This document shows positions 34,966-37,279 of a DNA stretch of 64,000 nt, piece by piece (the first letter of the stretch is position 1; each line of letters starts with the position of its first letter). The position numbers and the translations under genes are program-made. The notes below the pieces were generated by a model that had not been told where the DNA came from, made no database searches, and saw only the letters and a list, made by a program, of their open reading frames with translations. Source of the stretch: Thermoplasmata archaeon (lineage in GTDB: Archaea; Thermoplasmatota; Thermoplasmata; Lutacidiplasmatales; UBA184); NCBI GenBank assembly GCA_021819135.1, contig JAKASE010000002.1, positions 62,001 through 126,000 on the forward strand, given 5' to 3'.

Positions 34966-35038
34966 TGGGCCGAGGCGGAATCGAACCGCCGATCTCCGCG
35001 TTGTAAGCGCGGCGTCTTCACCACTAGACTACCGGCCC
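34966..35038 (-). tRNA. tRNA-Val (anticodon UAC)
   Basis: On the minus strand: 7-bp acceptor GGGCCGG with TCGGCCC (one G-U pair), D-arm GTC...GAC with G18-G19, anticodon stem CCGCG/CGCGG with loop CTTACAA giving anticodon UAC, T-arm GGCGG-TTCGATT-CCGCC, discriminator A. 73 nt, no intron, CCA not encoded. G15 is present, the site of archaeosine. The first 15 nt overlap the 3' end of arcS on the same strand, and no TATA box is visible upstream, so it may be read from the arcS transcript. Confidence 0.93.
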
Positions 35039-36886
35039 GTCGTCGGGGAGAGGCTCCTCCGTCATGGGAGTGTCGGTCGGCCGGGCGAGCCGGTGGCGGA
35101 CCCGGACCGCGAGACCCCGGCCGAGCTCCGTCATGAGCGGTCCGGGCAGGACCGCCTCGCCCACCCCCGCGAGCGCCTCCTCCCGCAGGAGAACGACGGA
35201 GTCGCCGATCCGGATCGACCGGTCGGCGTCCCGTACCCCCGGCGCGAACAGGTCCCCGGTGAGCGGCAGGGATGGATCGACGCGGACGGCGAGGGGGTAC
35301 GGAGCCCCGATGCGCCGGGCCCCGGCGATGGTGAGGTGGAAGAGCCCCCGTTCCTCCCGGACGGTGGCGAGGTCGGTCCGGCCGTCGGTGAGCCGCTGGA
35401 ACCACGGCCGGCCGGCGAGGCGCGGGGTCGGGGTGAAGAGCCGGTCGGCGAAGGCGCGGCCGAACTGAACGCTCGCGAGCTCGTGGAGCTCCTCGCGGAC
35501 GACCGCGAGCGGCCCTCCCGCGACGGGTGCGACGCTGCTCAGCGCCTCCGTAGCCGCCGAGCGGAGGAGCCCGAGCGCCTCGGAAGAGGTGGTGCGTCCG
35601 TCGGAGAGGGTCCATCGTGTCGTTCCGTCTCGGGGCGCGAGGTCCCGGAGGAAGGCGTACTCCTCGGGATCGAGATGGGCGATCACCGAACGGTACGCGC
35701 CGGTCCGCAGGAGGTGCTCGAGACCGGCCCGCACGAGCTCCCGTTCGCTCTCCGTCCACTCGCCCGTGACCGGGATGTCGTACTGGCGGGCCGGCGGCAC
35801 GTCCTCGAGCTCGCGGGGGACGAGCCCGATCGGCGAGCTCACCGAAACGACGTGCACCCGTTCGAGCGGGGCGAGCCCCTCCAGGGCGGAGGCGAACCGT
35901 CGATGCGACCGGGACCGCCGATACGGCTTGGTCTTCGAGCAGGGAACGAGCAGGAGGACCGATTTCGACGGCGGGGGGCGGTACCGCTCGAGGAGCCGGG
36001 CCCGGAACCGGACCATCTCGGGTCGCCGGTGAGACTCGGCGATCGCGTAGGCCCGGGTCGGGCCCCCCGACACCGGGGTCCGCTCCTCGAACGGGCCGGC
36101 AAGGTCCCGGTCGGCGTACCGGAGCATCTCGGCGAGAGCCGGCTCGGCGACCAGGCGGGACTCGACCCGTTCCCGCAGTCGCCCGACCCGAATCGCGGCG
36201 CGCGTCTCGGCGAGCTCCCGCTCGTAGGCCCACCGGACGTGGTCGACCAGCGACCCGGGGGGGTCGGCCCGGCACGCCGGGCACAGGCACCCCCGCTCCC
36301 GGAGGAAGCCGGCACGGTCGACCGGTCCGAGGGCCGGGTCGAAAAACTCCCCGTCGACCGCACGGAGCTCCCCTTCGGTGGTGTCGACGAGGTCGACGCC
36401 TGCGAAGACGAGGAAAGGGATCCGGTGCGGCAGGGCGACCCGAGGGGCCCACAGGAGGGGAGCCGCCCCGAACGCCGCGCGTACGTCGCGGACCGCCTCG
36501 ACGAACGGTCGGCCGTCGTTCCATAGCGCCCGGGCGTTCCCGAGGACGAGGAGCGTCGGCCGCTCGGCGCGCGCCCGCTCGGCGGCCGCCCGGTCGAACG
36601 GCGCGTGGACCAGGAGCGCCCCCTCGCCGACCGCGTGGATCCCGGCCCCGGTCCCGACGATCTCGGGGGCGAGGACCGGGATGCGGAGGTCGACCTCGGC
36701 TCCCTCGGTGGCGATCACGAGGTGCCGGGTCCCGGCCGGAGCGTCCGCCCGACGGACCGAGAGGCCCGGAGCGGGCAGGCCCCCGACCGAGTCGCGGAGG
36801 AGGGCGGGAACCTCGAGCGAGAGCGGGCCGAGCGACGCGGTGCCGAGCAGGGCGAGCCCCTCCCCGGCCGTGACGGTCCTCGGCAC
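35024..36886 (-). CDS. arcS: Archaeosine synthase (ArcS / TgtA2-like)
   Basis: Acts on preQ0 at position 15 of archaeal tRNA, the last stage of archaeosine formation. The N-terminal TGT-like domain (residues 1-290) keeps a zinc site C200, C202, C205, H216 (CLCPAC...VDH). The diagnostic ArcS motif LLLVPCSKTKPY is at residues 311-322. A C-terminal PUA RNA-binding domain covers about 540-615 (GAPYPLAVRVDPSLPLTGDLFAPGV..., GDSVVLLRE). GTG start. Its last four residues and stop (GPVV, TAG) are encoded by the first 15 nt of the tRNA-Val gene, itself a likely substrate. 620 residues, normal for ArcS. Confidence 0.9.
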   Translation of the reverse strand: MPRTVTAGEGLALLGTASLGPLSLEVPALLRDSVGGLPAPGLSVRRADAPAGTRHLVIATEGAEVDLRIPVLAPEIVGTGAGIHAVGEGALLVHAPFDRAAAERARAERPTLLVLGNARALWNDGRPFVEAVRDVRAAFGAAPLLWAPRVALPHRIPFLVFAGVDLVDTTEGELRAVDGEFFDPALGPVDRAGFLRERGCLCPACRADPPGSLVDHVRWAYERELAETRAAIRVGRLRERVESRLVAEPALAEMLRYADRDLAGPFEERTPVSGGPTRAYAIAESHRRPEMVRFRARLLERYRPPPSKSVLLLVPCSKTKPYRRSRSHRRFASALEGLAPLERVHVVSVSSPIGLVPRELEDVPPARQYDIPVTGEWTESERELVRAGLEHLLRTGAYRSVIAHLDPEEYAFLRDLAPRDGTTRWTLSDGRTTSSEALGLLRSAATEALSSVAPVAGGPLAVVREELHELASVQFGRAFADRLFTPTPRLAGRPWFQRLTDGRTDLATVREERGLFHLTIAGARRIGAPYPLAVRVDPSLPLTGDLFAPGVRDADRSIRIGDSVVLLREEALAGVGEAVLPGPLMTELGRGLAVRVRHRLARPTDTPMTEEPLPDDGPVV

Positions 36887-36922: not shown

Positions 36923-37279
36923 TCAGTCGCCGGCCGCGCCCTTCGTCGCCTTGCGCCGGGGTGGGCTCGCGGTCGGCGCCGGCGGGAAGAGCGCGGCCCA
37001 CGCCGCGATCAGCGCCTCGCGTCGTTCGGCGCCGGCGTCGGTCCGGCCCCGCCTCCCGATGAGCGGGTCGTGGGTCTCCCGCACGTCCCGAAGGAAGCCG
37101 GCCGGATCGGTGCTCGCGCGTTCGAAGCCGAAGAGGATCAGCTCCCGGAGGAAGCTCGACCGGCCTCTCCAGCCGATGCGCCGACGGACCGCGGGGTTCA
37201 GATGCCGCTTCGCGAGCCGCCAGACCTCGTTCGTCGTCCGGTAGTCCCGGGCCGAGAGTCCGATCATCACCTGAGGCAT
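36923..37279 (-). CDS. Basic hypothetical protein
   Basis: A 118-residue, strongly basic protein that I do not recognise. The N-terminus MPQVMIGLSARDYRTTNEVW leads into a helix-rich region (RLAKRHLNPAVRRRIGWRGRSSFLRELILFGFERA) and ends in a flexible Pro/Ala/Lys tail. The composition would suit nucleic-acid binding, but no motif supports it. It lies 36 bp upstream of arcS on the same strand, so it may share a transcript. A TATA-like AGATAGCTAG is about 36 nt before its ATG. Confidence 0.6.
   Translation of the reverse strand: MPQVMIGLSARDYRTTNEVWRLAKRHLNPAVRRRIGWRGRSSFLRELILFGFERASTDPAGFLRDVRETHDPLIGRRGRTDAGAERREALIAAWAALFPPAPTASPPRRKATKGAAGD

Follow-up and report, generated by a model that had tools for sequence, protein, structure and literature searches.

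The arcS gene of a Thermoplasmata archaeon runs into the adjacent tRNA-Val gene across a putative tRNA core promoter

Same-strand overlaps between protein-coding and tRNA genes occur in animal mitochondrial genomes, where the products are released by processing of a single long transcript and stop codons can be completed by polyadenylation. In Haloferax volcanii, transcription starts located inside coding sequences form a separate class (iTSS), and 144 of the 1153 internal starts have a downstream gene no more than 250 nt away (PMC4983044). The literature searched yielded no direct precedent for a same-strand overlap of a coding sequence and a tRNA in bacteria or archaea, which is weak evidence given that subscription papers were mostly outside the search. 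Here, we analyze one such overlap, between arcS and tRNA-Val, in a 64,000-nt stretch of the high-GC genome of a Thermoplasmata archaeon from a group of soil archaea (GCA_021819135.1, contig JAKASE010000002.1, positions 62,001 to 126,000 of the forward strand; hereafter, the window).

Gene identities and the shared nucleotides

The letters shared by arcS and tRNA-Val are GGG CCG GTA GTC TAG, and the arcS stop codon, TAG, occupies tRNA positions 13-15 (Table 1). The direct sequence, the ORF and the ARAGORN call agree, so that the 15-nt overlap, the identities of the two genes and their common strand, all noted in the first-pass annotation, are upheld. The tRNA-Val(TAC) gene is intact, and its cloverleaf exceeds the Rfam cut-off with the top RF00005 score in the genome. 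A single copy was found: there are two Val-like DNA matches in the genome, and the other is tRNA-Val(GAC).

The ArcS protein contains both the core domain (DUF5591, PF17884, 3e-41) and the C-terminal PUA domain (PF01472, 6e-8). Its match to the NCBIfam family NF040592 (tRNA_mod_ArcS; 2.6e-114, 382.9 bits) remains below the curated equivalog cut-off of 440 bits but is by far the best to any family; judged by these profile matches, the protein is a divergent ArcS rather than another enzyme. TgtA, the partner enzyme of ArcS, is encoded in the same genome (TIGR00432, 413 bits against a cut-off of 350 bits; G000:C42, where G000 denotes the genome of the window). Just upstream of arcS, there is a 118-aa ORF (window positions 36923-37279, minus strand) without a Pfam or NCBIfam match.

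An arcS mRNA that includes its stop codon also carries tRNA-Val positions 1-15. As the first-pass annotation soundly reasoned, an arcS transcript that reads through the tRNA would lose its stop codon, and become a non-stop message, if RNase P cut it at the tRNA 5' end. We know of no polyadenylation-type stop repair for this situation. No RNA structure joining the end of arcS to the tRNA was detected: the long transcript folds no better than its shuffles (z 0.15).

Table 1 Features of the arcS/tRNA-Val locus and of the Endo_dU locus in the same genome. Positions are those of the window unless a contig is named.
Feature	Position	Strand	Description	Basis
tRNA-Val, anticodon TAC (UAC)	34966..35038	minus		ARAGORN; RF00005, 72.7 bits
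15-nt overlap	35024..35038	minus	last five arcS codons (GPVV*) = tRNA positions 1-15	direct sequence
Putative BRE/TATA-like core promoter of tRNA-Val, CCGACACTCCCATGAC	35061..35076	minus	-38 to -23 of the tRNA; within the arcS coding sequence	
arcS, archaeosine synthase subunit alpha	35024..36886	minus	620 aa, GTG start, TAG stop within tRNA-Val	sequence, ORF
C-terminal tail of arcS past the PUA domain	35027..35089	minus	aa 600-620	
PUA domain of ArcS	35090..35254	minus	residues 545-599; last conserved domain	Pfam
DUF5591 domain of ArcS with the PCSKTKPYRRSRSH motif	35558..36013	minus	residues 292-443	Pfam
Endo_dU locus	L058:1-1512 (G000:C30)		adjoins tRNA-Arg(TCT); relatives L148-L177	

A conserved block at promoter distance from tRNA-Val

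For comparison, arcS loci were gathered from three sources: a set of 61 genomes selected as relatives, a second set of 28 that were either additional (24 new genus members) or searched again (four that had given no first match), and a name-bearing collection. Removal of duplicates left 61 distinct same-genus arcS loci long enough to reach the tRNA. The relatives found by name are Thermoplasmata metagenome-assembled genomes (MAGs), several of which (AcS1-36, AcS1-45, AcS1-67 and AcS4-93) are listed as Ca. Lutacidiplasmatales (PMC9287336). The genomes compared are MAGs, many of them incomplete; the loci are related, so the counts below are not independent. In all 61 loci, tRNA-Val(TAC) lies directly 3' of arcS on the same strand, an adjacency that is far beyond chance. 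In genomes of the same order and the same class, tRNA-Val(TAC) is located elsewhere, with several copies carrying an ordinary TATA box, and no tRNA-Val was found in the seven arcS downstream regions examined from such relatives.

Ahead of the tRNA, the arcS loci share a block with the consensus (A)CCGACA(C/G)NN(C/A)CWWGAC, also written (A)CCGACAnnnnCWWGAC. With at least 10 of 14 positions matching CCGACACnnCCATGAC required for a call, 57 of the 61 loci have a block whose start lies at -37 to -45 relative to the tRNA, a count that is partly circular because the block was spotted by eye and then scored on its own consensus; the tests based on the promoter matrix, the +28 position and the frame shifts, described below, are free of this circularity. 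A good block is absent from three or four of the 61 loci (L023, L024, L137, L029), and L021 and the L127/L128 pair carry the more canonical CCGAAACGACCAATAG. Relaxed-pattern matches recur at the arcS end across the genus. The possibility that the block is a general genomic motif was rejected given that CCGACANNNNCATGAC has one exact match in the whole window genome, the site at the arcS end. Another recurrent string, CCGACATCGTCAAGAC, which is found on other contigs of many genus members (for example, G007:C40:10741-10756, G029:C3:116421-116436 and G023:C136:1398-1413), is probably a conserved coding site.

The block is conserved as DNA, irrespective of the arcS reading frame. It is read in phase 1 (as TDTPMT) in 46 loci, in phase 0 in nine and in phase 2 in two, and on the arcS tree, its phase switches eight times or more. 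In the phase-0 loci, the TGA of the block itself is often the arcS stop codon, and in L084 and L133, the block lies entirely past the stop. Of the 11 loci in which the block is present in a shifted frame, 10 match it better there than in any window of their own arcS gene (0 of 143-343 windows); in the remaining one, L132, 12 of 337 windows reach the block match. Between the block and the tRNA, the mean pairwise differences at codon positions 1, 2 and 3 are 0.46, 0.46 and 0.50, compared to 0.17, 0.19 and 0.53 at the end of the PUA region. Thus, this stretch of arcS lacks codon periodicity and, accordingly, shows no visible protein-level selection. Together, the frame independence, the tRNA-linked position and the lack of codon periodicity suggest that the block is a tRNA-linked DNA element that arcS reads through.

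This element resembles the promoters of other tRNAs. A matrix was built from 25 other tRNAs of the same genome; nearly all of them show, at about -38 to -25, a box like CAAGGCTTTAAAG. Over the 57 orthologues, the matrix score peaks exactly at block+4, with a mean of 1.42 against -3.6 for the next offset and -11.4 overall, and among 1774 aligned arcS positions, a single one reaches the block+4 mean. This peak corresponds to about -37/-33 of the tRNA, the usual promoter distance. In addition, the base at block+28, 16 bases past the WW pair and not used for finding the block, is A or T in 51 of the 57 loci, compared to a background of 29%. The promoters reported for haloarchaea combine a BRE (CGAAA) and a TATA element (TTWT) with a -10 'WW' element (PMC4983044), to which the block+28 position would correspond.

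In the window itself, the tRNA-Val box scores -1.7 bits on this matrix, whereas most other tRNAs score roughly 5-14 bits; the T-rich core seen in the other tRNA promoters is missing from it, and no TATA match above 3.0 bits was found within 400 nt upstream of the tRNA. The window sequence alone shows no canonical promoter, and with a score this low, the impression in the first-pass annotation that no separate tRNA promoter is visible is understandable. This impression does not hold once the relatives are aligned, because a conserved, frame-independent element is located at the canonical BRE/TATA distance within the 3' end of arcS. It seems likely, then, that arcS reads through a weak, GC-rich core promoter of tRNA-Val and stops on a TAG that is built into the tRNA.

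A second overlap in the same genome has a similar organization. An Endo_dU gene (PF01949, 3.2e-48) upstream of tRNA-Arg(TCT) overlaps this tRNA by 15 nt and ends in GPVA*, and its coding frame holds CGAAGGTTAAAG, a TATA box that scores 11.9 bits on the tRNA promoter matrix. The relatives of this gene end 10 or 15 nt inside tRNA-Arg or else on the TAA of the box. The unmistakable TATA box points to a separate tRNA-Arg promoter and to the same architecture as at arcS/tRNA-Val: an overlap of 15 or 10 nt, a stop codon supplied by the tRNA, and a promoter, at tRNA-Val a putative one, within the coding frame. The difference is that the tRNA-Arg box is canonical, whereas that of tRNA-Val is GC-rich and weak. 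Elsewhere in the genome, the TATA-like box of tRNA-Leu(CAA) supplies the TAA on which a gene with an Rpr2/Rpp21 RNase P protein domain (L051, G000:C35) ends.

An alternative is that tRNA-Val has no promoter and is only cut from the arcS transcript, which would then yield the tRNA or an intact arcS mRNA, never both. The window box does score far below those of other tRNAs, the adjacency of the two genes is fixed in the genus, and co-transcribed tRNAs may exist in this genome. Indeed, tRNA-Leu(TAA) (L056), directly 3' of a PRC-barrel gene with the stop at -4, and tRNA-Met(CAT) (L050), 3' of the gene for ribosomal protein S3Ae with the stop at -39, lack a visible TATA box, and each is a candidate for genuine co-transcription with the gene before it. 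In Haloferax, 13 of the 52 tRNAs have no proximal start, a few of them because they belong to operons (PMC4983044). However, exclusive processing gives no reason for a frame-independent element that lies at promoter distance and matches the tRNA matrix in register, and the sister overlap at tRNA-Arg retains a full TATA box. We therefore regard this scenario as unlikely. In silico, a putative promoter element does precede the tRNA, contrary to what would define an mRNA-tRNA operon devoid of a tRNA promoter.

The block might also be read as a C-terminal ArcS peptide, TDTPMT, rather than as a DNA element. The predominance of a single frame (46 of the 57 loci) and the invariance of the T-D residues in the 22 loci of identical spacing would fit a peptide, but the block bases persist in the other two frames and past the stop codon. 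Furthermore, third codon positions vary less within the block (0.31) than in the PUA region, and the Pro/Ala/Thr codon in the block always ends in C. Conservation at the peptide level thus appears very improbable.

Gain and loss of the overlap among relatives

Unlike the adjacency, the overlap is not a constant trait. The arcS frame enters tRNA-Val in 43 of the 61 loci, by 15 nt in 25 of these, 21 nt in seven, 10 nt in six and 22 nt in five, and stops 4-37 nt ahead of the tRNA in the other 18, with at least 13 changes of state on the arcS tree. The first-pass annotation had proposed to check whether the overlap is conserved in related genomes; what is conserved is the gene neighborhood. The close relatives L127 and L128 have near-identical arcS ends (GGCTCAGG and GGCTGAGG, respectively) that differ by one TCA/TGA base, and this base by itself decides between a 15-nt overlap and a stop at -18, making the two loci a natural on/off pair. 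Shuffled linkers are expected to be open into the tRNA in 73% of the cases, compared to the observed 70% (43/61). Thus, the overlap is as frequent as expected by chance once arcS and tRNA-Val adjoin. From the sequence comparison, the adjacency is a shared character of the genus, and the overlap itself is unstable, gained and lost at a rate that needs no selection.

The stop codons of the overlapping frames are supplied by the tRNA. These frames end at tRNA position 10, 15, 21 or 22 (frames 1 and 0): besides the TAG of the window, the relatives use TAG at positions 8-10, TGA at 19-21 or TAG at 20-22, all built from the conserved T8-A9-G10 and A14-G15 region or its neighbors. In the third frame, the 5' part of the tRNA offers no stop, and all six loci in that frame stop earlier, without overlap, versus 43 overlapping loci and 12 stopping before the tRNA among the 55 in the other two frames (Fisher p 3e-4, uncorrected for relatedness). 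The 5' ends of tRNAs thus hold ready-made stops in two of the three frames, with ends at position 10 or 22 in one and at position 15 or 21 in the other.

The likely arrangement, a coding frame that crosses a tRNA promoter, can be outlined as follows. The same-strand neighbors arcS and tRNA-Val(UAC) would be packed so tightly that the arcS frame crosses the core promoter of the tRNA, the block acting as a weak, GC-rich BRE/TATA element. From this block, a short tRNA-Val precursor would start a few bases upstream of the tRNA. The arcS mRNA would be made separately, from upstream, with a 3' end that takes in tRNA positions 1-15 or more. RNase P may cleave a fraction of the arcS transcripts and so strip them of their stop codon; the cost to arcS is probably small, given that the gains and losses of the overlap show no sign of selection.

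A further, very improbable reading is a regulatory switch, a trade-off device in which an arcS transcript would either be translated to its stop or be split by RNase P to give tRNA-Val plus a non-stop message, so that RNase P or translation of the overlap would set the balance between ArcS and its substrate and couple tRNA supply to the modifying enzyme: this follows logically from the non-stop nature of a cut read-through transcript, but the overlap is often lost and regained, is no more frequent than with shuffled linkers and can hinge on one stop-codon base, the last codons before the tRNA lack protein-level constraint, and tRNA-Val is no special substrate. The feedback between enzyme and substrate that had been suggested on the basis of G15 loses its footing because AG is present at positions 14/15 in 27 of the 28 tRNAs examined in the window genome, and the Thermococcus combination of ArcTGT, ArcS and RaSEA modified all 46 tRNA transcripts tested (PMC11298593). 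The best reading of the arcS/tRNA-Val locus seems to be tight gene packing that varies between species, not a demonstrated feedback circuit.

Significance and comparison with known systems

One short stretch of a high-GC archaeal genome can carry three signals at once: a coding sequence, a tRNA promoter and a tRNA. The 61 related loci, with and without the overlap, provide a natural series for the study of mRNA-tRNA interference on shared bases. Annotation pipelines that forbid overlaps between coding sequences and tRNAs could truncate genes like arcS.

As in the animal mitochondrial overlaps, bases are shared at the arcS locus, so that coding or stop bases can be lost when the tRNA is processed; unlike the mitochondrial tRNAs, tRNA-Val appears to have a promoter of its own. 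The arrangement resembles the iTSS class of Haloferax volcanii in that a downstream gene would be expressed from a start within the preceding coding sequence (PMC4983044), but at arcS, that gene is a tRNA which the coding sequence itself enters, and the start is a predicted one.
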